From assembly GCA_018818905.1 (NCBI GenBank), contig JAHIRA010000002.1, positions 1-11,296 on the forward strand: a stretch of DNA of 11,296 nucleotides, written 5' to 3'. Under the pieces are notes generated by a model. The model saw nothing but the letters and a program-made list of their open reading frames with translations. It was not told the DNA's origin and made no database searches. Positions 1 to 11,296 of this stretch are shown in pieces. A program made the translations under genes and the position numbers. Numbering within the stretch: the first letter of the stretch is position 1; the number at the start of each line of letters is the position of its first letter. The stretch comes from Patescibacteria group bacterium (GTDB lineage Bacteria; Patescibacteriota; JABMPQ01; JAHIRA01).

Positions 1-74
1 ATCATCCAGTAGTTATACTCCTTGATGATTCCATCAGTATATTTATTGTCGGGGTCGTAAAATCTTTTGAACAT
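1..74 (-). CDS. 5' end of an unidentified gene, cut by the window edge
   Basis: An ATG at 72-74 on the minus strand opens a frame that stays open to the left edge (24 codons). The peptide begins MFKRFYDPDNKYTDG and continues to NYWM. An in-frame TAA lies only two codons upstream of this ATG, so the gene cannot start much earlier. It lies 37 bases downstream of cfa on the same strand with no terminator-like hairpin between them, so it may be co-transcribed. There is no clear Shine-Dalgarno sequence. The fragment is too short to assign a family. It could be a chance open frame, though the same-strand spacing favours a real gene start. Confidence 0.4.
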   Translation of the reverse strand, partial: MFKRFYDPDNKYTDGIIKEYNYWM

Positions 75-111
75 GTATTTTTAGAAAACAGCTCTTCAAA
101 ACACAGACACT

Positions 112-1230
112 TCACCGAACTGAGATATAACCCCCCGGCACGCCATTTTTGGACAGTACTATTTGCCACAGTTGGTTTGACCTGGATCGGAATGTGCCGG
201 CGCAACTAAGGAGGTAGTATTCCCACATTCGGTAGAATCTTTGATCATATTGATTGGCAATGTTATTCCACCCGTTGGTGAAGTTCTGGTACCAAGCCAT
301 AAGGGTTTTGTCGTAGTCGGCGCCAAAATTATGAAGATCTTCTAGGACAAAAAGACCCTCGGTAGATTTTGCAAGATAATCCAAAGAGGGAAGTAGAGAA
401 TTGGGGAAAATATACTTTTCTATCCATCTGTCAGTTGCTTTTGAGGTTTCGAGACTACCAATAGTTTGGATCAGAAAGAGGCCGGAGTCGTTTAGGCACT
501 TGTGTGCCAATTCCATGTAGGTTCTATAATTTCTGTAGCCGACATGCTCAATCATGCCCAAAGAAACGATGTGATCAAACTTTTCATTAACATCTCGATA
601 GTCTTGCAGTCGAATTTCGGCTGGTAACCCAGAAGTATATTTTTTTGCTAGTTTGGCTTGTTCTTTGGAAACGGTTATACCCACCACTTTGGCTCCGTAG
701 TGGCGGGCGGCGTATTCAGCAAAGCTGCCAAAGCCGCAACCAATGTCTAGGACTTTGTCGTTTTCTTTGAGTCCTATCTTTCTACACACAAGATTAAGTT
801 TGGCTTCTTGGGCTAAATCTAGATCGTCAACATCCTTGAAGTAGGCACAGGTATAAACCATGCGTTTATCAAGCATGGTTTTGTAAAGATCATTACCGAC
901 ATCATAATGCTTTTCGCCAATCAAAAAAGCACGGTTTTTGTTCTGCAGATTAACAACCCGTGCTTTTAGGTATTCAAGTATCAGACCGGGTGTTACTTTC
1001 ACTTCTTTATCTAGTTTGGCGCTAATAATTTTGGCTATCATTTCGTCGATCGCCTCCGAGTCCCACCAGCCATCCATGTACGATTCTCCGAGCCCCAGAT
1101 TGCCATGACTCAGAATTCTCTGGTAAGTGTCTGTGTTGTGGACTTGCATATCCCATTTGCTTGGCCCATCAACCGTGATACCAGCTCTACATAGAAGTTC
1201 TTTTGATAGTTGATCGGTTTTTTTCCTCAT
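112..1230 (-). CDS. cfa: Cyclopropane-fatty-acyl-phospholipid synthase (SAM-dependent)
   Basis: Transfers a methylene group from S-adenosylmethionine onto the double bond of unsaturated acyl chains in membrane phospholipids. It aligns by eye along its whole length with E. coli Cfa (382 aa; 372 aa here). Visible features are an N-terminal region with LGLGESYMDGWWD, the segment HYDVGNDLY, the active-site strand YTCAYF (Cys128, equivalent to E. coli Cys139), the SAM-binding loop VLDIGCGFG (160-168), LQDYRD, GMIEHVG (Glu228, E. coli Glu239), NFGADYDKTLMAWY (Tyr306, E. coli Tyr317) and the C-terminal CAGTFRSR (Cys343, E. coli Cys354). The position of E. coli His266, a bicarbonate ligand, is Gln255 here (QTIG instead of HTIG). 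I chose ATG 1230, which has a weak GAAG six bases upstream; an in-frame TTG at 1242 would add four residues. A promoter candidate lies upstream. Family identity is firm; activity with the Gln substitution is untested. Confidence 0.95.
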   Translation of the reverse strand: MRKKTDQLSKELLCRAGITVDGPSKWDMQVHNTDTYQRILSHGNLGLGESYMDGWWDSEAIDEMIAKIISAKLDKEVKVTPGLILEYLKARVVNLQNKNRAFLIGEKHYDVGNDLYKTMLDKRMVYTCAYFKDVDDLDLAQEAKLNLVCRKIGLKENDKVLDIGCGFGSFAEYAARHYGAKVVGITVSKEQAKLAKKYTSGLPAEIRLQDYRDVNEKFDHIVSLGMIEHVGYRNYRTYMELAHKCLNDSGLFLIQTIGSLETSKATDRWIEKYIFPNSLLPSLDYLAKSTEGLFVLEDLHNFGADYDKTLMAWYQNFTNGWNNIANQYDQRFYRMWEYYLLSCAGTFRSRSNQLWQIVLSKNGVPGGYISVR

Positions 1231-1272
1231 GCAATTCTTCAACTTAAAGAAAGCCCTCTTAGTTATGTCTTT

Positions 1273-1300
1273 ATTTTAGCAAATGAAATCTTTGGATCAA
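1273..1300 (-). promoter_or_regulatory. Candidate sigma-70 promoter for cfa
   Basis: On the minus strand a TTGATC -35 (1295-1300) is followed by a 16-base spacer and a TAAAAT -10 (1273-1278). The -10 is preceded by TGC, an extended -10 signature. Predicted transcription start is near 1266, about 35 bases before the cfa ATG. It lies in the 121-base gap between dprA and cfa, and no hairpin terminator is obvious there, so read-through from dprA is also possible. Confidence 0.5.
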
Positions 1301-1351
1301 GAGGATATTGATGAAAGTAGAGAAATATTCATCAGGAAATTTGTCTTTGAT

Positions 1352-2440
1352 CTATTTTCTATCCAACTCATATCTTCCACCCGCATCCCGTCGCAGCACA
1401 CTCTTGATCTCCAAAAGACTCAAGTTTCTGTTTAGAGTCATAATGCCTAAATCTAGGACCTGATTCAATGCTTCGGCCGAAAGGGGACTTTTTTTGAGTA
1501 ATTCGATGATCTGGGCCTCTTCCACATTTTGTGGCTTATAACTTATTTCTGAGTTAGAGGGTGAGTTGATCTTAATGCTAAACTCCTCCAAAACGTCATC
1601 CGGTTCCAGCACGGCTTTGGCCCCCAGCCGAATAAGATGATTGGCGCCAATAGATTTGAGACGGTCAATGTCTCCGGGGATGGCCAGAACGTCTCTGTTT
1701 TGCTCTAGAGCAAGGAAAGCAGTAATCAGAGCGCCGGAGCGCCGTGGTGCCTCTGTGATCAAAACAGCCTTAGATAGCCCGGCCACAACACGATTGCGAC
1801 GCGGGTAGAGGCCAGGTGATGGTTCCAAATCGGGTGGAAATTCGCTGACGATTGCGCCGCCATATCTGAGGATTTCTTGAGACATTCTGAAATTTGAAGC
1901 GGGGGCAATATGGAGTAACCCTGAGCCTAGTACCGCAATCGTTTTGCTTTTGTTGTTAATTGAAGCTTGATGAGCGCAGGCGTCTATGCCCAAAGCCAAC
2001 CCCGAAACAATAACCAAATCATTTTTGGCCATGGCGTTGGCAAAATCGTGTGTATTCTTGAGACCGTATTCAGTGCAGTTTCTGGTTCCAACAATGGCAA
2101 TGTTTTTGGAGCAGTCACGTGATAGGGTTCCAAAATAGTAAAGTAGCATTGGTGGGTCACTGATTTCTTTGAGAAGTGTAGGGTAGTCGTCGTTTAGATA
2201 GTCAACCATCTTAATTTCTTTCGTCTTAAGCATTGCTGCTTCTTCAGTCAGATTGACATTCTCTTTGGCCAGAATGATTCTTTGGGCATCTTTTTCTGCG
2301 ATCTTGCTCTTTAACAATTCTTCATAAGAAGCCTGATAAATCTTCTTGAAGCTTTTGAAATAATCAGCCAAGATCCTAGCTTTCACGGCTCCAACCTGTG
2401 GAACGAGGTTTAGAAAGTGAGCATAAATACTTTGATCCAT
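1352..2440 (-). CDS. dprA: DNA processing protein DprA (RecA loader in natural transformation)
   Basis: Binds incoming single-stranded DNA, protects it and loads RecA during natural transformation; it acts in the cytoplasm. At 362 aa it has the usual three parts. The N-terminal helix-hairpin-helix/SAM-like region contains LVPQVGAVKARILADYF (12-28). The central Rossmann domain shows NIAIVGTRNCTEYG (113-126), VSGLALGIDACAH (145-157), TIAVLGSGL (167-175), IVSEFPP (197-203), YPRRNRVVAGLS (212-223), RSGALITA (234-241) and IPGDI (254-258). A C-terminal winged helix spans about 305-358. I chose ATG 2440; an in-frame TTG at 2452 would add four residues and lies in the terminator T-run of mfd. No Shine-Dalgarno is visible before the ATG, and the predicted leader is very short. 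It follows mfd on the same strand. Confidence 0.95.
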   Translation of the reverse strand: MDQSIYAHFLNLVPQVGAVKARILADYFKSFKKIYQASYEELLKSKIAEKDAQRIILAKENVNLTEEAAMLKTKEIKMVDYLNDDYPTLLKEISDPPMLLYYFGTLSRDCSKNIAIVGTRNCTEYGLKNTHDFANAMAKNDLVIVSGLALGIDACAHQASINNKSKTIAVLGSGLLHIAPASNFRMSQEILRYGGAIVSEFPPDLEPSPGLYPRRNRVVAGLSKAVLITEAPRRSGALITAFLALEQNRDVLAIPGDIDRLKSIGANHLIRLGAKAVLEPDDVLEEFSIKINSPSNSEISYKPQNVEEAQIIELLKKSPLSAEALNQVLDLGIMTLNRNLSLLEIKSVLRRDAGGRYELDRK

Positions 2441-2450
2441 TTTTTTTATC

Positions 2451-2506
2451 AATAAAAAATAAGCGGAAACAAGCCGAGCGTCAATTTTGGCGCACGGTTC
2501 CGCTTA
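2451..2506 (-). terminator. Intrinsic terminator downstream of mfd
   Basis: On the minus strand a perfect 9-bp stem (2498-2506 with 2460-2468, TAAGCGGAA / TTCCGCTTA) is topped by a second helix (2491-2497 with 2474-2480, CGG and CGC pairs around one mismatch). A T-rich run TTTTTTATT (2459-2451) follows immediately. It sits in the 121-base gap between the mfd stop and the dprA start, so it should terminate mfd transcripts. The T-run ends only about 10 bases before the dprA ATG, so it would also lie in any transcript reading from mfd into dprA. Confidence 0.75.
2456..2484 (-). promoter_or_regulatory. Candidate dprA promoter embedded in the mfd terminator
   Basis: On the minus strand TTGACG (2479-2484) is separated by exactly 17 bases from TATTTT (2456-2461). 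The -35 lies at the edge of the hairpin loop and the -10 overlaps the T-run. Predicted start is near 2449, giving a leader of about 9 bases. A second candidate, TTGCTA (2540-2545) - 16 bases - TATGCT (2518-2523) with a TGA extended -10, would instead place the whole hairpin in the dprA leader. The sequence alone cannot decide between them. Confidence 0.4.
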
Positions 2507-2561
2507 CCTATATTTCTAGCATATCACTTTTGGCAGAATTAGCAACAACGCTAGCAGGCTT

Positions 2562-5500
2562 TTATCCACCAAACTTTCTAACAATTTCTTCCAAATTCTC
2601 CGACCAATTCCCCCCCAAACTTTTCAAATTAATCTTCACTTTCTCATCTTCAACCTCAAGGTCCGGAAAAACTTTCAAAACCTCATAGGCTTTTTTATAA
2701 TCAGTTTTCCCATCAAAGGAGAGAACAATTTTTTTGTACTTACTTTCATCCGGTTCCAAGAAAATCTTGGTATCAACATTTTTTATCTCGGCTTTTTTGG
2801 ACAGAAGTTTAAGCCGAAGAATATAGAAAAGGTTAGTTAGCTCCGGAACTTCTAGATCTTGGGTCAGTTCTGCTTCTTTTTTGGAGAGCTTCTCAAGATT
2901 TTCAATACCTGCCAAGCTTTGGTAGAGAACCAATCTTTCTTCTTCATTGTCAACTAGATCGGTTGGGATATAGGCATCTAGGGGTAGATCAATGGAGACG
3001 TCGATCTCTTTTTCAACCTTGCCGGTTTTCAATTCTTTGATAGTTGTATTCAGAAGCTTCAGATAGTGAGACAAACCAATGGCTTTAACCCGTCCGGATT
3101 GTTCTTTGCCAAGAATGTTTCCAGCTCCTCTAATCTCAAGATCCTTCATAGCCAGTTCAAAACCAGAGCCAAGCTTTTTGGCCGCCAGCAAAGCCGACAA
3201 TCTTTTCTTGGCTTGCTCGCCCAGGTTTAGATTTTTGTACAAGAAGTAGGCAAAGGCTTTTTTCTGACCACGACCAATGCGACCGCGAAGTTGGTACAAA
3301 CTGGCCAAACCAAATCTCGTTGCGTCAGCCACAATTAGGGTGTTTACATTGGGAAAATCAATGCCATTTTCAATAATCGAGGAACAAATTAAAATATCTA
3401 TTTTTCTTGCTCGAAACTTTTTCATGGTTTCAGAAATAGCCTTAGGATACAGTTGGCCATGAACCACGCCAATTCTTTTTTCGGGAAAGTAGTCTTGTAT
3501 TTTCTTCTTGGCTGCCTCTATAGTTCTGACGCGATTGTGAAGATAATAAACCTGTCCGTTGTGATCCAGTTCTTTTTGCATAGCCTTCTTCACAATCTCG
3601 GGACTGCTTTTCCTGATAATGGTCTCAACTGGTTTTCTACCCTCGGGAGGAGTAGTCAGGGTGCTGATATCTTTAAGTCCAGATAAACTCATCTGCAAAG
3701 TTCTAGGGATTGGCGTGGCGGTTAAGGTTAGAATGTCAGTTTTAGTCCGCAGCGACTTGAGTCTCTCTTTGGCCTTAACCCCAAAGCGCTGTTCTTCGTC
3801 AATAATAATGAGACCCAAATCCATAAAATCAATATCTTTAGAAAGAAGTCGATGTGTTCCAATGACCAAATCAAGTTGACCATCTTTAAGTTTCTGAACA
3901 ATTTCTTTTTGCTCCCTTGGGTTTTGCAGGCGAGATAAAAGAGCTAATTTGGGAGAGAAGCTCTCAAATCTTTTTTGAAAAGTTTCAAAGTGTTGTTTGG
4001 CCAAGATAGTGGTTGGTGCGAGTAGGACAACTTGTTTTTTATTGGCCACCACACGGTAGGCCGCTCTAAGAGCGATCTCGGTTTTACCAAAGCCAACATC
4101 ACCACAAACCAGTCTGTCCATTGGTTTTGCGGACGCCAGATCAGCTTTAACTTCATCCCAGGCTCTGAGTTGGCAGGCAGTTTCGGTAAAAGGGAAAAGC
4201 CCAATAAACTCGTCTTCGTGTGGCGCCTTTTCAAAAGAGAATCCTTGATACAGCTTTCTTTCGGCGTGTAAATCCAGTAGTTCTTTGGCAATCTTTCTGG
4301 TATCTTCCTTGATCTGTTTCTTGACCTGAGCAAAAGACAATTCGTGCAACCGATTGATCTTGGGCTTGGCCTCACCAATATACTTGGCGATTTTATCGGC
4401 ATATTCAACCGGTAGGTAAATTTTGTCTCCTTTGGCGTATTCAATGACAAAAAATTCTCTTCGGCCCTCATCAATAGTTCTCTTGGTCATGCCGGTAAAC
4501 CTGCCGACTCCATGATCAATATGAACCACAAAATCACCTTCCTTCAAAGACGCAATGAAGGTCTCGTCGATCTCAGTTCTTTTTCTTTTAAGGCGCCTAG
4601 AAAAAATGTCAAAATCAGACAAGAAGACCAGGCCTAGCTGCTCTTCCACAAAACCATTAAAGTTGAGCGAAAAGTCTTTTGGAACTTTGAAAACAAAAAT
4701 ACCTGACTCATCCTTTTTGATAATTTCGTTTGCCTCTTCTACTTTTCTGAAACTTGCGCTTACTTCTTCATTGATAAGAATTTGTCTAATTTTCTCGGGC
4801 TCTTTGGTTAGAACAATTTTTTGATTCAAGCTCTCTCGCTTCAACACTTCCAAAAGTTTTTTGGGGTCAAGATAAAAGGGAGTTATTTCTTGTGGTGAGA
4901 AGGCAAGTCTTTGAGTACTTGATTTTCCTTCAGAAGTCGGGAGATCTTCGAAGATGATGCGCTGGCACTTCTGAGCACTTTCTTGAAAAAGTTGATACTC
5001 ACCTTCGTCGAGGGGGTCAATTTCTTCCCGGACACTTTCAGGATCAATTTCAAGCAGAGTTATCTTCCTCAAGCTTGAAGCAATGCTTAGATAATCAGAA
5101 AGCTTGGCATCACTCTGTTTCTGAGACAAAGAGGGAACAGTGATGCTCTTCAAACTCTTGGAATTTTTCTGATTTGTTTTGGGGTCAAAAGTATAAAGGG
5201 ATTCAATCTCATCAAAAGAAGTTTCCAGTCTCAGCGGCCAGTCAAGCTGTGGAACAAAAATATCAAGCACATCTCCTCTGATGGCAAAGTCACTTTTGTC
5301 AAAAACTTTGGTCTGTCTTCTATAACCAAGCTGAGTTAATTTTTGGGCTAAGCTCTTCTGATCAATCTTGGTGTTCGCGGCCAGTTGTAGTGATTGCCGC
5401 AAAAAATCTGACGGAGTAATAAAGTTGTTCTTAAAACTTTCAGTCGGAATCAAGAAAATCTGGGCCTGACTTCCCTTGAGAAGTTCAAAAACAAAACGAA

Positions 5501-5741
5501 CGTTATCTATTCTTTTGTCACTGCCAGCGTCTTCAAAAAGATCGGGACTCAAATAGAAATAAGGTTTTGCAAAAAGATCCAAAAAGTTTTTGATGAGTTG
5601 GCAGTCTTTCTCTTTGGCCACGACAAACAAGGATTCTTCTGAGCCTTGAGACGTCTTCTTGCCCATAGCAAAAGCCAAAACTTCTAGCGGAAGTCTCTCA
5701 ATAATTCTGGCCTCAAAAATATTATCTGTCTCAAATCTCAT
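2562..5741 (-). CDS. mfd: Transcription-repair coupling factor Mfd
   Basis: A DNA translocase that binds RNA polymerase stalled at lesions, pushes it off and recruits UvrA for nucleotide excision repair. It is 1059 aa from ATG 5741, slightly shorter than E. coli Mfd (1148 aa). Domains in order: a UvrB-like N-terminal region (about 1-350); the RNA-polymerase interaction domain with FVVHIDHGVGRFTG (around 400); the RecG-like helicase core with Walker A GDVGFGKTE (around 545), DEEQRFG (around 645), TATPIPRT (around 670), the ENGIDFPNVNTLIVADA segment and QLRGRIGRG (about 785-820); and the C-terminal TRCF domain (about 920-1059). A GTG at 5753 would add four residues. ATG 5741 has GGA seven bases upstream and is preferred. 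A 219-base gap containing a large inverted repeat separates it from pth. I could not find a convincing mfd promoter. Confidence 0.97.
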   Translation of the reverse strand: MRFETDNIFEARIIERLPLEVLAFAMGKKTSQGSEESLFVVAKEKDCQLIKNFLDLFAKPYFYLSPDLFEDAGSDKRIDNVRFVFELLKGSQAQIFLIPTESFKNNFITPSDFLRQSLQLAANTKIDQKSLAQKLTQLGYRRQTKVFDKSDFAIRGDVLDIFVPQLDWPLRLETSFDEIESLYTFDPKTNQKNSKSLKSITVPSLSQKQSDAKLSDYLSIASSLRKITLLEIDPESVREEIDPLDEGEYQLFQESAQKCQRIIFEDLPTSEGKSSTQRLAFSPQEITPFYLDPKKLLEVLKRESLNQKIVLTKEPEKIRQILINEEVSASFRKVEEANEIIKKDESGIFVFKVPKDFSLNFNGFVEEQLGLVFLSDFDIFSRRLKRKRTEIDETFIASLKEGDFVVHIDHGVGRFTGMTKRTIDEGRREFFVIEYAKGDKIYLPVEYADKIAKYIGEAKPKINRLHELSFAQVKKQIKEDTRKIAKELLDLHAERKLYQGFSFEKAPHEDEFIGLFPFTETACQLRAWDEVKADLASAKPMDRLVCGDVGFGKTEIALRAAYRVVANKKQVVLLAPTTILAKQHFETFQKRFESFSPKLALLSRLQNPREQKEIVQKLKDGQLDLVIGTHRLLSKDIDFMDLGLIIIDEEQRFGVKAKERLKSLRTKTDILTLTATPIPRTLQMSLSGLKDISTLTTPPEGRKPVETIIRKSSPEIVKKAMQKELDHNGQVYYLHNRVRTIEAAKKKIQDYFPEKRIGVVHGQLYPKAISETMKKFRARKIDILICSSIIENGIDFPNVNTLIVADATRFGLASLYQLRGRIGRGQKKAFAYFLYKNLNLGEQAKKRLSALLAAKKLGSGFELAMKDLEIRGAGNILGKEQSGRVKAIGLSHYLKLLNTTIKELKTGKVEKEIDVSIDLPLDAYIPTDLVDNEEERLVLYQSLAGIENLEKLSKKEAELTQDLEVPELTNLFYILRLKLLSKKAEIKNVDTKIFLEPDESKYKKIVLSFDGKTDYKKAYEVLKVFPDLEVEDEKVKINLKSLGGNWSENLEEIVRKFGG

Positions 5742-5760
5742 AGTTTTCCACACTTTCTTA

Positions 5761-5789
5761 TTGACAAAGCCAAGGCTTCTTCATAAGAT
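5761..5789 (+). promoter_or_regulatory. Candidate plus-strand promoter facing the inverted-repeat element
   Basis: A perfect TTGACA (5761-5766) is followed by a 17-base spacer and TAAGAT (5784-5789, 4 of 6 consensus bases). The spacer begins with an inverted repeat AAGCC-AA-GGCTT (5767-5778) that could be an operator. Predicted start is near 5796. It points away from mfd, into a region with no plus-strand protein gene, so its product would be an RNA covering 5796 to about 5962. Confidence 0.4.
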
Positions 5790-5810
5790 TAGGTGTTTTA
5801 GCACTTTAGG

Positions 5811-5962
5811 AAAAAAGCCTTTATTTTCTCCTACTTACAAGAAACCAAAACAAGGTATCTCCTCCTTAAACCTTGCTAGTAAGTTTTTTGGAAAATGATT
5901 AGTTTACGGGAAACCATGAGCTGTCATCTTTCATGTAAGTAGGGGAAGAGAAAGGCTTTTTT
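5811..5962. repeat. Long imperfect inverted repeat (34-base arms, 84-base interior)
   Basis: The left arm 5811-5844 and the reverse complement of the right arm 5929-5962 agree at 30 of 34 positions; the outer 29 agree at 26. The left arm starts AAAAAAGCCTTT and the right arm ends AAAGGCTTTTTT. The match stops sharply outside the A/T runs. No clear target-site duplication flanks it. The right end runs into the pth stop codon (5961-5963). The element fills most of the pth-mfd gap and could be a MITE-like palindrome, an RNA gene or a bidirectional terminator. Confidence 0.85.
5811..5962 (-). terminator. Probable terminator of the der-pth transcript
   Basis: Read on the minus strand, the inverted repeat begins at the pth stop codon, and its second arm ends in AAAGGCTTTTTT followed by CC (T-run at 5816-5811). 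That is the form of a Rho-independent terminator, but with an unusually long 34-base stem and an 84-base interior. The minus-strand RNA would have C-A and C-U mismatches where the plus-strand RNA keeps G-U pairs. Confidence 0.5.
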
Positions 5963-6506
5963 AGATGGCTAGTTTTTGGGCGGCTATTTTGAGAGCCTCG
6001 GGAAAAGAGTTATTTTCGAGCGCATCTATTTCTTCTTCTTCAAATTTCTCCAAGACAAATTTGTCAGTTGGCTTCTGACCTCTTCTGTCAGAATTAATGC
6101 CAAGGCGAATCCGTTGAATGCTTTTGCTTCCCAAGCTTTGTTGAATAGAGGCCATGCCCTTGTGTCCACCCGCACTCTCACCGGTTTCTTTGACAACGCC
6201 AAGATCCAAATCTTTGTCGTCATAGCAAACAATCATGTCTTTCTCTGGGTCTACTTTGTAAAATGACACGAGTTTTTGGACAGCTTCTCCGGAATTGTTC
6301 ATGAAGCTTTGTGGTTTGACGAGAATGATCACGTTCTCGCCCTCGTGGATTTTGGCAATGTCAGCTTCAAATTTTTTTTGAAAATCAAAGGGGCTAGCAG
6401 TGTCACCAAAGATGGCCAACAATTTATCAAGCAACATAAAACCGGCATTATGACGGGTGCCTTGATACTTAAGCCCAGGGTTACCTAGGCCAACTACAAT
6501 TTTCAT
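5961..6506 (-). CDS. pth: Peptidyl-tRNA hydrolase
   Basis: Cleaves the ester bond of peptidyl-tRNAs dropped by ribosomes and so recycles tRNA. It is 181 aa, against 194 in E. coli. The signature GLGNPGLKYQGTRHNAGF occupies 6-23 with the catalytic histidine His19 and the binding residue Asn9. KPQSFMNNSG (64-73) supplies the second binding Asn (Asn70). The catalytic-helper Asp lies in CYDDKDLDLG (Asp96). The GGHNG motif found in E. coli (Asn114) reads GGHKG here (Lys116). The ATG overlaps the der stop by four bases (ATGA). AAGGA ends five bases before the ATG, one of the few good ribosome-binding sites in the window, so translation is probably coupled to der. Confidence 0.96.
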   Translation of the reverse strand: MKIVVGLGNPGLKYQGTRHNAGFMLLDKLLAIFGDTASPFDFQKKFEADIAKIHEGENVIILVKPQSFMNNSGEAVQKLVSFYKVDPEKDMIVCYDDKDLDLGVVKETGESAGGHKGMASIQQSLGSKSIQRIRLGINSDRRGQKPTDKFVLEKFEEEEIDALENNSFPEALKIAAQKLAI

Positions 6507-7837
6507 TTTTTTCCTTTTACTATTTTGATGTGAACGGGGCGAGAAAAATATTTGAAATGCTGATATATTTTCTTGCCCACGAGTTGAATATATTCTCTTC
6601 TGAGAAAACCTTTTTCAGACACCTTCAGACCAAAAAGAAGGGGATTGCTTGAAACCTGATAAAGTCCTTTGACAGTTGAAGTTTTTCTATTTCTTCTGGA
6701 CCGAGGGGGGTAATCAATCAAGAAATCTTTGAAAAATTCCTGTAGTTCATTGGGAGAAATATTTCTGTCTTTATCTTTTCTTATTTTCAAAATCGTTTTG
6801 GGAATAGCCTCAATATTATAATGATCCTTGGCAGAAACAAAAATAGTCTTAGCAAAATACAAGACAGCCAGACGATGGTCTATCTCTTTCTTTTTCTCTT
6901 TAAGATAGCTAGCAATCTTTCCAGTGCTGGTCTCAAGATCGCAGAGCTTGTCACATTTGTTAACAATAATAACGCAAGGAAGAGAGCTTTCTTCTAACAC
7001 CTGAGCGACTCTCAGATCCTGTCTTGAAAGTCTTTCTGAGCCGTCTATCACTAGGCAAGCCACATCTATATAGTTCAAGATATTATCAACACGTTTTTGA
7101 CTCTTCTTTTCAATTACTCCGGTAGCTTTTGATTTTCTTCTTAGCCCGGCAGTATCAATGACGGTAAAATCTTGACCCTCAAACTTAAAAGTACTTTCAA
7201 TCATATCAATGGTTGTCCCTGGAACTTCGCTAACAATGACTCTCTTCTTTTCCAAAAGGGTATTGGTCAGAGAAGATTTACCAACATTGGCTTTGCCAAA
7301 GAAAGCAAATTTAAAGCTCTTGTCTTCTTCTTTCTCGGTGGCTTCCAACGTAGCCACAACCTCGTCAAGCAAGTCTCCGATACCTTTACCAGAAATAGCC
7401 GAGACAGGAAACATTCTCTCAAAGCCCAGGGCTCTGAATCTGTCAATTTGATTAAACAGTCGACCGCTATCAAGCTTGTTCAAGACCAAGACCACCTTAT
7501 CACTTTCTTTTTTGATTTTCTTGGCAATTTCTCTATCATAAGAAGTGATTCCATTCTTGGCATCAATAACGAAAAGAATCAAATCGCAGGTTTTGATCCG
7601 GGCCTCGATTTTGTCGAGAACTTTTTTCTCTAGTCCGGCAAATTTTTTGGTCACCAGACCGCCCGTATCAATAACGTTGAAGTGACGACTTTGCCATGAA
7701 GCTTCAAGCTCGACATAATCACGAGTTGTTCCGGGGATATCAGAGGTGATAACTTTTCCTTTGTCGGCAAAAACATTGGCTAAGGTAGACTTGCCAACAT
7801 TGGGTCTTCCAATTATGAGAACGTCAAATTTCTTCAT
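6503..7837 (-). CDS. der: Ribosome biogenesis GTPase Der (EngA), two tandem G domains
   Basis: An essential GTPase that acts in 50S subunit maturation. At 444 aa it has the diagnostic duplication. G domain 1 shows GRPNVGKST (10-18), IPGTTRD (34-40), DTGG (57-60), NKLD (120-123) and SAISG (146-150). G domain 2 shows GKANVGKSS (181-189), VPGTT (205-209), DTAGLRRK (228-235), NKCD (293-296) and SAK (335-337). A C-terminal KH-like domain runs from about 355 to 440 and includes YPPRSRRNRK and NPLLFGLKVS. All nucleotide-binding motifs look intact. ATG 7837 has only a weak AGAG just upstream. It shares a transcript with pth, which overlaps its stop. A strong promoter candidate overlaps the end of the preceding LCP gene. 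Confidence 0.97.
   Translation of the reverse strand: MKKFDVLIIGRPNVGKSTLANVFADKGKVITSDIPGTTRDYVELEASWQSRHFNVIDTGGLVTKKFAGLEKKVLDKIEARIKTCDLILFVIDAKNGITSYDREIAKKIKKESDKVVLVLNKLDSGRLFNQIDRFRALGFERMFPVSAISGKGIGDLLDEVVATLEATEKEEDKSFKFAFFGKANVGKSSLTNTLLEKKRVIVSEVPGTTIDMIESTFKFEGQDFTVIDTAGLRRKSKATGVIEKKSQKRVDNILNYIDVACLVIDGSERLSRQDLRVAQVLEESSLPCVIIVNKCDKLCDLETSTGKIASYLKEKKKEIDHRLAVLYFAKTIFVSAKDHYNIEAIPKTILKIRKDKDRNISPNELQEFFKDFLIDYPPRSRRNRKTSTVKGLYQVSSNPLLFGLKVSEKGFLRREYIQLVGKKIYQHFKYFSRPVHIKIVKGKK
6512..6516 (-). promoter_or_regulatory. Shine-Dalgarno for pth inside the der 3' end
   Basis: AAGGA on the minus strand lies five bases before the pth ATG (6506) and within the last codons of der. It fixes the pth start and supports coupled translation through the ATGA overlap. 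Confidence 0.7.
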
Positions 7838-7856
7838 ACTCTAAATGAAACGAATT

Positions 7857-7882
7857 AAAAGGGAGACAACCAGAGTGTCTCC
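7857..7882 (-). terminator. Intrinsic terminator of the LCP gene
   Basis: On the minus strand GGAGACA (7882-7876) pairs perfectly with TGTCTCC (7868-7862) around a 7-base loop, followed by C and TTTT (7860-7857). It lies 30 bases downstream of the LCP stop codon and 20 bases before the der start. The T-run is short, so termination may be partial. Confidence 0.6.
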
Positions 7883-7883
7883 T

Positions 7884-7911
7884 ATCATACTCAGTTAGAC
7901 TCAGTCGTCAA
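7884..7911 (-). promoter_or_regulatory. Promoter candidate for der-pth
   Basis: On the minus strand TTGACG (7906-7911) is followed by a 16-base spacer and TATGAT (7884-7889); each hexamer matches consensus at five of six positions. The -35 directly abuts the LCP stop codon (7912-7914). The predicted start near 7877 falls inside the first arm of the LCP terminator. The spacer is exactly a direct repeat, ACTGAG-TCTA-ACTGAG. The der leader would be about 40 bases. Confidence 0.6.
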
Positions 7912-9399
7912 TCACTTTTCCTCTATTTCAAGGCTTTGGAGCTTCCCTTGGGCACTGTCTCCCAGAACAATTACAATATTTGTATCCTCGGGGACGGTGT
8001 TTCGAGAAATTTTGCTAAAGTCTTGACCGCTAGTATCTAGTTTAGCCTGAAACTTTTTTTGTAGAGCATCAACAATTCTTTTGCCTTTGTCTCCTGAAGT
8101 ATAAATAACTGTATTTTCATAGTCCTTGGTGAGGGCATTGCCGAAGCCATTAATTTTGTATTCTTGGGTCTTGAGGGTAGAAGCAGCCTCATTTGCCAAC
8201 CCATCTGTTTCACTCCCGTTGAGAATAAAAATAGAAACATCTTCTTCGGATTCACCAACTTCAAAGACGTTTTCTGACATATCTTGTATTTGAGAGAAGT
8301 CGTCGACTCGTGGAAGCAGGACATAAGCTCCGCCTCTTGAAGAAGAATAGAGCAGCCCGCTTTTGCCATTATCTATAACCTTATTGATTGTTGAACCACT
8401 TTCCATATTTCTTGCGATATCAAGCATAATCATAACTTCCCATGGCTCAATACTAGTTCTGACGTGGTCGCCCAGAACGTTGACTAATTCATTGATGGTC
8501 TTGGGGTTAACGGCAGTTTCAACTGAAAAAGCTTTCTTCTTAACTGCTTCCAGGACGCGTTGTTGTCTGGCTGCTCGGGCAAAGTCACTGCCCTCGAAGC
8601 CACCATCTTCATCTGTGACGATGCCGTGTCTTGATCTAGAGAATTGCAAAGACTTCTCACCGTCCATAGTTTGAATACCTTTATCAAAACTGACAGTTTG
8701 GTATCCAAAATCGTATGTCGGATATTGTTCATCAATAAAACTTCTCTCAACCTCAACATCTATACCGCCGAGTGAGTCAACAACCTTCCTAAAGCCCTCA
8801 AAATCAACTCTAACAAAATAGTGAATAGGTAATCCTGTCACCTGGCTGACACTTTTTGATAAAGTTATTGCTCCTTGATTTTCACCTTTTCTTTCCCCAA
8901 TACTAAAGAGGCTGTTTATTTTGTGATTCCGGTTGTCTTCAGCCGGTACATAGAGGTCTCTAGGAATAGAGATCAGGGCAATTTTTTTCTGGTCTGTTTC
9001 TTTGTCATACTTAATACTAGCCACCATGATAGTATCGGTGAGCATAGCCCCGCTGTGACCCTCTCCACCCATGCCGATTAAAAGAATATTAGTGCGACCT
9101 TCTGCTTGGCCTTTCAATTCTTTATTGTCTGGCAAGATCAATCTTTTGAGCTGATCAAAAACAGAGGCTTTCTTCCCTTCAAAACCTACAAAAACATCTT
9201 TGCTAACCGAAAGAACTTTGTACGAAAAAAGAGACCCAAAAATAGCCGTAAAAATTAGCAATCCAACAAAAACTTTCAAAACAAAAAAATGCTTCTTTGG
9301 CTTTTTTTTGCTGGACTTTTCGGCTTTCTTGGGAGTTTTTTCTTCCGGGACAAACTCCGGCAGGTCATTAATGGGATCAAGCTCAGGATAATCCTTCAT
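7912..9399 (-). CDS. LytR-CpsA-Psr (LCP) family envelope protein with C-terminal LytR_C domain
   Basis: LCP proteins are membrane-anchored phosphotransferases that move lipid-linked glycopolymers onto peptidoglycan or other envelope acceptors. This one has 495 aa. A charged cytoplasmic tail (1-37, ending KKKPKKH) precedes one membrane segment (about 38-62). The LCP domain (about 100-290) shows NILLIGMGG (104-112), LTDTIMV (120-126), SIPRDLYV (144-151), NHKINSLF (158-165), FEGF (200-203), LGGIDVEV (210-217), LQFSRSRH (251-258) and FARAARQQRVLEAV (273-286). These include the Asp and Arg residues expected to bind metal and polyprenyl phosphate. A LytR_C-like domain (about 388-480) begins SIFILNGS. 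The frame is open upstream to 9534, but ATG 9399 is preferred because the promoter's predicted start is only a few bases before it. The exact substrate is unknown. It is transcribed divergently from lepB. Confidence 0.93.
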   Translation of the reverse strand: MKDYPELDPINDLPEFVPEEKTPKKAEKSSKKKPKKHFFVLKVFVGLLIFTAIFGSLFSYKVLSVSKDVFVGFEGKKASVFDQLKRLILPDNKELKGQAEGRTNILLIGMGGEGHSGAMLTDTIMVASIKYDKETDQKKIALISIPRDLYVPAEDNRNHKINSLFSIGERKGENQGAITLSKSVSQVTGLPIHYFVRVDFEGFRKVVDSLGGIDVEVERSFIDEQYPTYDFGYQTVSFDKGIQTMDGEKSLQFSRSRHGIVTDEDGGFEGSDFARAARQQRVLEAVKKKAFSVETAVNPKTINELVNVLGDHVRTSIEPWEVMIMLDIARNMESGSTINKVIDNGKSGLLYSSSRGGAYVLLPRVDDFSQIQDMSENVFEVGESEEDVSIFILNGSETDGLANEAASTLKTQEYKINGFGNALTKDYENTVIYTSGDKGKRIVDALQKKFQAKLDTSGQDFSKISRNTVPEDTNIVIVLGDSAQGKLQSLEIEEK

Positions 9400-9408
9400 A
9401 TTGAATGT

Positions 9409-9437
9409 ATCATAACCAAAAACACAGAATTTGGCAA
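9409..9437 (-). promoter_or_regulatory. Promoter of the LCP gene, predicting a near-leaderless mRNA
   Basis: On the minus strand TTGCCA (9432-9437), a 17-base spacer and TATGAT (9409-9414) match consensus at five of six positions each. Only nine bases separate the -10 from the ATG at 9399, so the mRNA should start about 0-4 bases before the start codon. That fits the lack of a Shine-Dalgarno sequence. Confidence 0.6.
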
Positions 9438-9439
9438 GT

Positions 9440-9467
9440 TTGCAAAATAATATCAAAGGAGTATAAT
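9440..9467 (+). promoter_or_regulatory. Promoter candidate for lepB-hisS
   Basis: A perfect TATAAT (9462-9467) has TTGCAA (9440-9445) 16 bases upstream. Predicted start is near 9474, which would give lepB a leader of about 85 bases if ATG 9559 is used. The -35 is two bases from the -35 of the divergent LCP promoter, so the two probably share upstream control or compete for polymerase. A weaker TATCAT (9540-9545) lies closer to the lepB ATG but has no good -35. Confidence 0.5.
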
Positions 9468-9558
9468 GACAACAAATTAGGACACTTTTTAATGGTCTTT
9501 TGGGGATCGTTACTTTGTTTGTGTGCCTATGCAACTAATTATCATCTTTATTATTCTC

Positions 9559-10200
9559 ATGTCAGAAAACCAAGACGATTCTGGAAAAGTATATATCATG
9601 CCCGCAGAGCACAAAAAAGACTTGGAAGACAAGAATAAGTCCTCGTTTGGTTCCTTTGTTTTGGAGCTAATCAAAATTGTTGTCATTTGTTTGGCTATTA
9701 TCATTCCTGTGCGTTTCTTTCTTATTCAGCCATTCTTTGTCCGGGGCGACAGCATGGAGCCCAATTTCTCTGATCGCGAGTATCTTATTATAGATGAGAT
9801 CAGCTACCGTTTTTCTGAACCAGAAAGAGGTGATGTGATTGTTTTTCGCTACCCCAAAGACCCCTCCCAATATTATATAAAAAGAATCATTGGTCTTCCC
9901 GGAGAAACTCTAGAAATTGATGACGGTCGAGTTATTGTACTCAATGAAGACCACAAAAAAGGAGTTGAGGTCAAAGAGTTTTATTTACCAGATGATTTTG
10001 ACACTCCCGGTGATTCCAAAATTGAGCTTGGAGCGGAAGAATATTTTGTTCTAGGTGACAATAGACGGGCTAGCAGTGACTCCAGAGTTTGGGGAGCCTT
10101 ACCTCAAAATTACATCGTTGGCAAAGTTTGGCTTAGAGCTCTGCCTGTCAACAAGGCCCAAGCTTTCCAGGCTCCAGAATATAAAGCTTTAGATAACTAA
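9559..10200 (+). CDS. lepB: Signal peptidase I
   Basis: A membrane serine protease with a Ser-Lys dyad that cuts signal peptides from secreted proteins on the outer face of the cytoplasmic membrane. From ATG 9559 it has 213 aa. A short charged cytoplasmic segment (1-33) and one membrane segment (about 34-58) lead into GDSMEPNF (63-70) with the nucleophile Ser65. RGDVIVFRYP (90-99) follows, then the general-base lysine Lys108 in YIKRIIGLPGE and box E GDNRRASSDSRVWG (166-179). The start is uncertain: GTG 9523, ATG 9529 and ATG 9598 are in the same frame and none has a clear Shine-Dalgarno. The upstream choices would add a hydrophobic stretch MQLIIIFIIL. hisS begins 15 bases after its stop, so the two are probably one transcript. 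Confidence 0.95.
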   Translation: MSENQDDSGKVYIMPAEHKKDLEDKNKSSFGSFVLELIKIVVICLAIIIPVRFFLIQPFFVRGDSMEPNFSDREYLIIDEISYRFSEPERGDVIVFRYPKDPSQYYIKRIIGLPGETLEIDDGRVIVLNEDHKKGVEVKEFYLPDDFDTPGDSKIELGAEEYFVLGDNRRASSDSRVWGALPQNYIVGKVWLRALPVNKAQAFQAPEYKALDN

Positions 10201-10215
10201 TCTTCTACAAAAATT

Positions 10216-11296
10216 ATGCCAAGAAAAAAGAAAGCCGCAACCCAAAGAAAAACTCGCAAAAGAGAAGTCCTGACCAGAGTCACGGGAATGCACGATCTTC
10301 TCCCTGAAGATTTTGTTTGGTGGAATCAAACTTTGGATTTGATCAAGAAATATGCTTCTGTCTATAGTTTTCAGGATTTATCAACTCCTGTTCTGGAAAA
10401 GACAACTCTCTTTACCAGAGGGATTGGCAAGAGCACTGATATAGTCAGCAAAGAAATGTTTTCTTTTCAGGACAAAGGCGGCGACAACCTAACTCTTAGA
10501 CCAGAATGGACAGCTTCAGTAGCTAGAGCTTACGTCGAAAACGGCATGAGAACCTGGCCTCAACCGGTCAAACTTTTTTCTGTTGGGCCACTCTTTAGAA
10601 GAGAACGTCCGCAAGCAGGGAGATATCGTCAATTTCATCAGGCCAACTTTGAAATTATTGGCAATGATCGTCCCGTTCTCGATGCCGAAGTTATTTTTCT
10701 CTCTTGGAACATTCTCAAGAAACTCGGACTCAACAATGTCGAAATCCAAATCAACAGTATTGGTTGTCCAGAATGTCAACCAGAATATTCAGATGTCCTA
10801 ATTAATTATTTCTCATCCAAGAAACAACGTCTCTGTTCAGATTGCAAAAGAAGACTCAAAAGAAATCCGCATCGAATTTTGGATTGCAAAAAAGAATCTT
10901 GCCAGGCTATTGCTGCTGACGCTCCCCAGACTGTTGATTATCTGTGCGAAGATTGTCACAACCATTTCAAAGATGTTCTAGAATATCTAGATGAGGTTGA
11001 GGTTTTTTATAACCTGAATCCTTCCCTAGTTCGTGGTCTTGATTATTACACCAGAACAACCTTTGAGTTTGTTACAAAAGATGAGGAGACAGGCAAAACC
11101 TCTATTGCCCTTGGTGGTGGTGGCAGATACGATGGTCTTATCGAGCAGCTTGGTGGAGAAGAGACTGGCGCAGTTGGTATAGCCTTAGGCCTTGAGAGAA
11201 TTGTTGAAGAGTTAAAGAAACAAAATATAGCTCCCAGAAAAGCCAAGGCCCCAGATGTTTATCTGGTTCAATTGGGCGAACTGGCCAAAAAAAGAG
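10216..11296 (+). CDS. hisS: Histidyl-tRNA synthetase, 3' end cut by the window
   Basis: Class II aminoacyl-tRNA synthetase that charges tRNA-His. 360 codons are present without a stop; the family is usually about 420-440 aa. A basic N-terminal extension (KKKAATQRKTRKR) precedes GMHDLLPED. Motif 2 shows RPEWTASVAR (95-104) and FRRERPQAGRYRQFHQ (127-142). The histidine-specific motif is LVRGLDYYTRT (271-281), followed by ALGGGGRYDGL and motif 3 with AVGIALGLERI. Between motif 2 and the histidine motif are eight cysteines: CPEC (184/187), CSDC (207/210), Cys224, Cys229 and CEDC (244/247). This arrangement looks able to bind zinc. It starts at ATG 10216, 15 bases after lepB, without a visible Shine-Dalgarno. 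The anticodon-binding domain lies beyond the window. Confidence 0.96.
   Translation, partial: MPRKKKAATQRKTRKREVLTRVTGMHDLLPEDFVWWNQTLDLIKKYASVYSFQDLSTPVLEKTTLFTRGIGKSTDIVSKEMFSFQDKGGDNLTLRPEWTASVARAYVENGMRTWPQPVKLFSVGPLFRRERPQAGRYRQFHQANFEIIGNDRPVLDAEVIFLSWNILKKLGLNNVEIQINSIGCPECQPEYSDVLINYFSSKKQRLCSDCKRRLKRNPHRILDCKKESCQAIAADAPQTVDYLCEDCHNHFKDVLEYLDEVEVFYNLNPSLVRGLDYYTRTTFEFVTKDEETGKTSIALGGGGRYDGLIEQLGGEETGAVGIALGLERIVEELKKQNIAPRKAKAPDVYLVQLGELAKKR

Follow-up and report, generated by a model that had tools for sequence, protein, structure and literature searches.

Between the genes for peptidyl-tRNA hydrolase (pth) and the transcription-repair coupling factor (mfd), the genome examined here almost certainly carries a conserved non-coding RNA gene on the plus strand (5796-5962, approximately 167 nt), as judged from covariance-model homology, synteny, and covariation. 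Comparison with related genomes shows a folded RNA that has its own promoter in most members and a single site in each genome, in almost every case flanked by pth and by dprA or mfd; the element is read as a stand-alone small RNA gene. The best overall explanation, to which a probability of roughly 0.6 is assigned, is a small RNA gene whose open loop occludes Shine-Dalgarno (SD) sites; both the expression of the RNA and its mechanism are read here from sequence.

The element lies in a window of 11,296 nt (the whole stretch of DNA that was analyzed, positions 1-11296 of one contig) from a host assembly of 1.135 Mb, in 186 contigs and 88% complete. The minus strand of the window carries cfa, dprA, mfd, pth, der, and a gene of the LCP family, and the plus strand carries lepB and hisS. 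Both genes that flank the element run antisense to it: mfd (2562-5753, minus strand; TIGR00580, E = 2.1e-261) is the divergent neighbor and pth (5961-6506, minus strand; TIGR00447, E = 2.1e-48) the convergent one. Relatives of the window's pth include sequences named Daviesbacteria, Roizmanbacteria, and Dojkabacteria, which, together with the small genomes, suggests that the phylum is Patescibacteria. A full-length cyclopropane fatty acid synthase is also encoded in the window (112-1242, minus strand; PRK11705, 582 bits) of this 1.1-Mb genome, perhaps as a horizontal gain.

The longest inverted repeat in the window spans 5811-5962, with arms of 34 nt each (5811-5844 and 5929-5962) that are separated by 84 nt and complementary at 30 of 34 positions (88%), confirming the match given in a preliminary description of this DNA. 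When 121,996 bases of the host, including the window, were scanned with a simple inverted-repeat score, the element (22) shared the top score with a single perfect hairpin of 22 bp. A hairpin of 21 bp reached 21, and just one further repeat had a wide interior (158 nt), with a score of 17. RNA folding gave -56.7 kcal/mol for the plus strand (z = -7.21) and -45.0 kcal/mol for the minus strand (z = -4.35), with none of 200 shuffles as good on either strand. The element thus folds beyond chance and folds better on the plus strand, which bears out the earlier proposal that it exceeds an ordinary stem and favors that strand. The same description had envisaged three interior hairpins and a four-helix cloverleaf; this arrangement was not confirmed. 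The fold of the window shows two interior arms, and the fold and the relatives show a three-way junction, made up of a closing helix (P1 plus P2), an apical arm (P2b-P3), and a side hairpin (P4). The promoter and the CCUCCU loop reported below do not figure in that description.

All parts of the predicted gene lie on the plus strand. A sigma-70-type promoter (5761-5789) agrees with the consensus at 10 of 12 positions, with TTGACA at 5761-5766, a 17-nt spacer, and TAAGAT at 5784-5789, and would place the transcription start near 5796. Inside the spacer, between the -35 and -10 elements, a palindrome with 5-bp arms, AAGCCAAGGCTT (5767-5778), is a possible operator. The outer helix P1 pairs 5811-5822 with 5951-5962, and helix P2, for which alignment and covariation both speak, pairs 5828-5841 with 5932-5945. 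The apical arm (5842-5886) consists of P2b (5842-5845/5883-5886, our own reading), an A-rich internal loop, and P3 (5850-5856/5870-5876), whose first pair in the window is a nonstandard A-C; the arm corresponds to helices 2 and 3 of the covariation analysis. Its 13-nt apical loop, AUCUCCUCCUUAA (5857-5869), contains the anti-SD motif CCUCCU at 5861-5866. The side hairpin P4 (5891-5931), corresponding to helices 4 and 5 of the covariation analysis, is placed with some uncertainty in the window's alignment row, where the posterior is lower; G002 lacks this hairpin, and in some other members it is reduced or missing. The 3′ strand of P1 (5951-5962), which reads AAAGGC followed by T6, is probably the 3′ end and terminator of the RNA, and its T6 overlaps the stop codon of pth (5961-5963, minus strand). 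Both ends, and with them a putative length of about 150-170 nt, are taken from the promoter and the T-run.

At the plain sequence level the family is hidden: BLASTN with the element found a single copy in the host genome, nothing but short matches in 38 relatives (best E = 0.003), and a 29-nt match (E = 0.5) in two phage records. A covariance model of the window's single sequence (R1) recovered the window alone in the host, where all 13 candidates were scored, and over 379 genomes of the phylum it matched five, namely the window's own, G252, G219, G318, and G237. The matches in G252 (E = 9e-10), G219 (E = 2.4e-7), and G318 (E = 6.5e-5) were full-length, and these three sequences have in common with the window the helix CCUAYUURCAAG..., the A-rich internal loop, and the CCUCCU loop; just upstream of each lies a TTGACA-17-(TATACT, TATAAT, or TAATAT) site. 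The match in G237 (73 nt, E = 0.0038) is a plain hairpin that was absent with the models R2 and R3, and it was discarded.

A scan of pth flanks, in which a promoter-like site and a CCTCCT hairpin were both required, first flagged G002, G022, G026, and others; for these members, promoter and loop are therefore not independent of discovery, and G022 is also in the R2 seed. Model R2 was built from four relatives without the window, with a structure drawn by hand from those seed sequences, and it recovered the window at E = 1.1e-6 as the sole match in its genome. Over the phylum, 41 of the 379 genomes gave a match to R2 at E ≤ 0.05, the best at 1.3e-24; two of these genomes are doubtful (G231 and G296). 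Model R3, built from 40 members, likewise matched 41 of the 379 genomes, from 14 families including that of the doubtful G296. G231 (R2 E = 0.003) was absent with R3 and has none of the query genes nearby, and it was rejected; G296 (R3 E = 5e-5, with dprA downstream on the same strand) was retained as doubtful. Because the R2 and R3 searches scored no more than 10 candidates in each genome, under strict filters, weaker members may be missed. Minus-strand matches of the models at the same sites are read as echoes of the palindrome.

Across bacteria, R2 matched one of 80 pth loci (L058), a few of the 80 being perhaps from the same phylum, and R3 on the whole genomes of 50 of these loci again matched only that of L058. 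With filters off, weaker and shorter variants appeared beside pth in L045 (27.0 bits; 2097-2173, minus strand), L044 (22.7 bits; 69-162, plus strand), and L030 (19.7 bits; 1234-1292, plus strand), each with CCTCCT in its hairpin, which suggests that the family is wider than the genomes matched. A strict pattern search of viral contigs found none, which is weak evidence because the window itself would not fit the pattern; a looser pattern also gave no match in the window.

The position of the gene was compared at 43 loci (the 41 R2 genomes, G002, and L058). Downstream and antisense, pth was found at 39 of them, and dprA, mfd, or topA was found upstream and antisense at 40, the nearest upstream neighbor found being dprA in most relatives and mfd in the window. 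The exceptions are G126 and G246, where the stretch retrieved contains no match to pth, G378, which lies at a contig end, and the doubtful G231 and G296. An orientation so well kept with respect to both sides would suit a cis-acting device for the neighboring genes, either antisense to the 3′ end of pth or tuning mfd and dprA through divergent transcription. Such a device is quite improbable, however, because the distance from the RNA to the pth match ranges from 19 to 1206 nt, with small ORFs intervening in one family, and because antisense or supercoiling effects need neither a fixed fold nor a fixed loop. The intervening ORFs in that family (f46; L205, L206, and L208-L212) are apparently unrelated, and some have a strong SD. 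A general role as a 5′ leader, considered where no terminator was obvious, was set aside, the downstream ORFs being short and unrelated in appearance.

Among seven genomes of the window's order, the element occurs in G000, G002, and G005, and no R3 match was found in the other four (G001, G003, G004, and G006), suggesting that the RNA was lost or not gained in some lineages. G001, the sole other genome of the same family that was compared, had no match to the models; it keeps the LCP-der-pth-mfd-dprA order, with a pth-mfd gap of only 24 bp (L149, 4606-4629), for which a natural deletion or a state preceding the gain is the suggested reading. The RNA is thus dispensable in the G001 lineage or was never gained there. 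In the preliminary description, absence of the element from close relatives that keep the pth-mfd order was to count against it, and G001 bears this out in part.

Covariation was tested on an alignment (A9) of 40 of the 43 sequences, from which G113 (L187) was left out for a minus-strand echo and G231 and G296 as doubtful; the E cut-off for membership was chosen to exclude echoes. Over its 33 pairs, 96.1% of cells are paired, and 32 pairs show compensatory changes. Double-change cells number 285, compared to 73 ± 10 after shuffling (none of 500 shuffles as high) and at most 59 when the partner column was slid by 1 to 3 positions. Compensatory change is seen in 13 of the 14 pairs of P2 (helix 1), the remaining pair being invariant, and in all 10 pairs of P4 (helices 4 and 5). 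Because A9 was fitted to the model, which favors the model's own pairs, the test was repeated on a plain MAFFT alignment of 23 members of our choice. There, RNAalifold arrived without guidance at a consensus that contains P2, P3, and the base of P4, in which 22 of 27 pairs are compensated; this consensus includes neither P2b nor the upper part of P4.

Alignment A9 also bears on the strand. In it, G-U cells outnumber A-C cells by 187 to 23, and do so in 38 of 40 rows, which identifies the plus strand as the RNA strand. The preliminary description had argued for a plus-strand RNA from G-U asymmetry in the window itself; the asymmetry proved to hold across the family but not in the window's own row, with two G-U and three A-C cells. 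Of the options that it had listed, an undescribed structured RNA is the one supported, by syntenic homologues, covariation, a conserved promoter, and the G-U bias of the plus strand.

In 29 of 41 members, the 90 nt upstream contain a promoter that agrees at 10 or more of 12 positions. The mirrored control stretch downstream does so in 1 of 41, and among 1747 random 90-nt windows from the same loci the share is 1.9%; in 12 of the 41 members, the 90 nt upstream contain no promoter of at least this quality (of the 43 loci, G231 was dropped, and G378 is too near a contig end). At the other end, a permissive and uncontrolled test found a run of T, or a hairpin followed by a T-rich tail, within about 110 nt downstream in 34 of 42 members (G231 dropped). 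The window's P1 has T6 at its end and more than 100 nt between its strands, and a simple terminator scan (loops of 3-8 nt) did not list the site. Termination of the RNA may well be a further function of this outer helix and its T6 in the window. Pairing between the P1 flanks, compared in 40 members (G231, G296, and G378 dropped), gave a mean duplex energy of -10.9 kcal/mol for native flanks vs -5.5 kcal/mol for flanks swapped between members, which supports P1 across the family.

With A6...T6 at its ends, the element would form a terminator-like helix on either strand, and the preliminary description had offered both a MITE-like palindrome and a long bidirectional terminator, which here would be that of the der-pth operon. 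Neither is supported by the comparative data, and together they retain only a very small share of the probability. The element has its own conserved promoter upstream, terminator-like sites that are distinct from it follow in many relatives, and the apical loop is conserved, all of which argues against a terminator alone. A mobile repeat is not supported either: the host has one copy (BLAST and R1), and each relative that was matched has one site, almost invariably the same, among the up to 10 candidates scored in a genome.

The motif CCUCCU lies within the apical loop of all 40 aligned members. The most common loop is UCAUCCCUCCUAU, of 13 nt (range 11 to 17 in the alignment), and the window's loop keeps the motif as CUCCUCCUU. 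Loop columns CCCUCCU are 95-100% conserved, and paired columns average 69% identity; stems that drift with compensation, around one unpaired motif that is frozen, are as expected for an RNA presenting a base-pairing seed. By its sequence, the CCUCCU loop is an anti-SD core, like that of the 16S rRNA end. In 29 pth flanks, CCTCCT hairpins were found at 12 loci, compared to 1-8 for 14 permuted motifs, and together with a promoter at 4, compared to 0-2, the complementary AGGAGG giving 11 and 1, respectively. Since both strands were scanned, this permutation control is uninformative on strand, and the enrichment that it indicates is modest. Opposite the loop, the minus strand (5853-5821) reads AAGGAGGAGATACC-TTG, an SD and the start of a 10-codon ORF (MFWFLVSRRK), which is probably a by-product of the loop motif. 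A role for this small ORF as a leader peptide was rejected, as the promoters found point the opposite way.

In the proposed mechanism, the rod and the junction would hold the apical loop open, the exposed anti-SD loop would pair with AGGAGG-type ribosome-binding sites of mRNAs, and this pairing would keep the 30S subunit from binding at a number of genes that are led by a strong SD. Taken by itself, SD occlusion as the way in which the RNA works is given about an even chance. It is favored, with a decoy of the 16S tail in second place, because the loop is an anti-SD core and because NfeR1 and alpha-r14 RNAs provide a precedent. A crude survey covered about 11% of the host genome and counted an SD ahead of any in-frame ATG within the first 60 codons of an ORF; a strong SD (at least 5 nt) was found for 5 of 74 ORFs vs 1.6% of all minus-strand ATGs; targets may thus be few and effects selective, which argues against simple global silencing. 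A scan for loop-leader duplexes over approximately a tenth of the host genome gave as its best candidate L162 (-18.8 kcal/mol), with AAGGAGGAGA before an ORF of 334 aa.

The scarcity of strong-SD genes in the host sample would also suit the decoy, in which the loop would titrate either a protein bound to the tail of 16S rRNA or the leaders of mRNAs at large, without chosen targets. The window's loop and the 16S sequence AUCACCUCCUUUC of relatives are alike beyond CCUCCU, at 10 of 11 positions by eye, so that the anti-SD core sits in flanks similar to those of the 16S rRNA 3′ tail, and one place per genome with constant synteny would agree with a housekeeping role. The mimicry is imperfect, however: most members read AUC-CCUCCU-A and lack the A that 16S rRNA has between AUC and CCUCCU. 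Unlike in the 16S tail, the core sits in the closed loop of a small RNA. A search with the 16S-tail pattern TGGATCACCTCCTTT (up to one mismatch) was positive in 16 of 21 member genomes, or 17 of 22 including G001, and the six of these loci that were read end in ...GGATCACCTCCTTTCT and are 16S ends; the host's own 16S end was not found with this pattern, perhaps because it is missing from the assembly, which also weighs against the decoy. On this balance a decoy is unlikely. A widespread housekeeping RNA of small-genome bacteria that would set translation globally, its copy of the ribosome's mRNA-recognition sequence competing with the 16S tail for SD sites or for tail-binding factors, would be a class of riboregulator for which no description was found; it is put forward tentatively, as a possibility behind the preferred reading of SD occlusion at chosen genes.

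Anti-SD loops of this kind are known from other small RNAs, among them RS0680a of Rhodobacter and its homologues, named "cuckoo RNAs". In the alpha-r14/NfeR1 RNAs of Alphaproteobacteria, CCUCCUCCC lies in unpaired regions and mRNAs are silenced at the ribosome-binding site; NfeR1 has three hairpins, and SmelA075 and SmelA099 have three and four, each hairpin with CCUCCUCCC (PMC10746234, PMC3927594). Like these trans-acting rhizobial sRNAs, the RNA described here has a sigma-70-type promoter and a conserved anti-SD in a hairpin loop, with stems that differ (PMC10746234, PMC3927594). It is unlike them in having a single loop with the core CCUCCU, carried on a rod with a three-way junction, beside pth and in another phylum. 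The unpaired anti-SD loop is present in 40 of 40 members and the several CCUCCUCCC hairpins are absent, so the RNA is not a member of alpha-r14. RS0680a and its homologues are described as a stem-loop sRNA with anti-SD loops that is suggested to bind the ribosome-binding sites of several genes (PMC3927594). The present RNA is likewise a stem-loop sRNA with an anti-SD loop; it differs from RS0680a, which is depicted there with two stem-loops, in lineage, context, and fold (PMC3927594). In its working principle, the RNA is thus probably a variant of the anti-SD small RNAs.

A further comparison is with 6S RNA, a rod of similar length with a hairpin on its 3′ side. The resemblance in rod-like fold, length, and small 3′-side hairpin, together with the finding that the 6S model RF00013 was over its cut-off in none of 20 genomes, 19 of them with the element, would accommodate a 6S-type regulator of RNA polymerase in genomes without detected 6S RNA. 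The reach of RF00013 is limited, however, since just 4 of 14 control genomes scored above its cut-off. Moreover, no open bubble is seen in the fold, and conservation is highest in a C-rich apical loop, which to our knowledge is not a feature of 6S RNA. Given also the absence of an Rfam match at the element, a 6S-type function is assigned a very low probability.

Rfam 15 had no match at the element, either in the window (E ≤ 5) or at 11 loci from 10 other genomes (L181-L183 at E ≤ 5 and eight more at E ≤ 1). The one exception is in L216, where a match to STnc370 that falls below threshold overlaps the element by one base. Among the open-access papers listed as matches, none describes the element by title or abstract, and none deals with small RNAs of these bacteria. 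Together with the Rfam result, this suggests that the RNA family is, as far as tested, undescribed.

This analysis delineated one locus, in 14 families (one by a doubtful member), at which every aligned apical loop carries CCUCCU, thereby providing a testable candidate for translation control in a group of hosts whose genomes are small and whose regulators are probably few. With the alignment and the covariance models, this RNA could be sought in metatranscriptomes.
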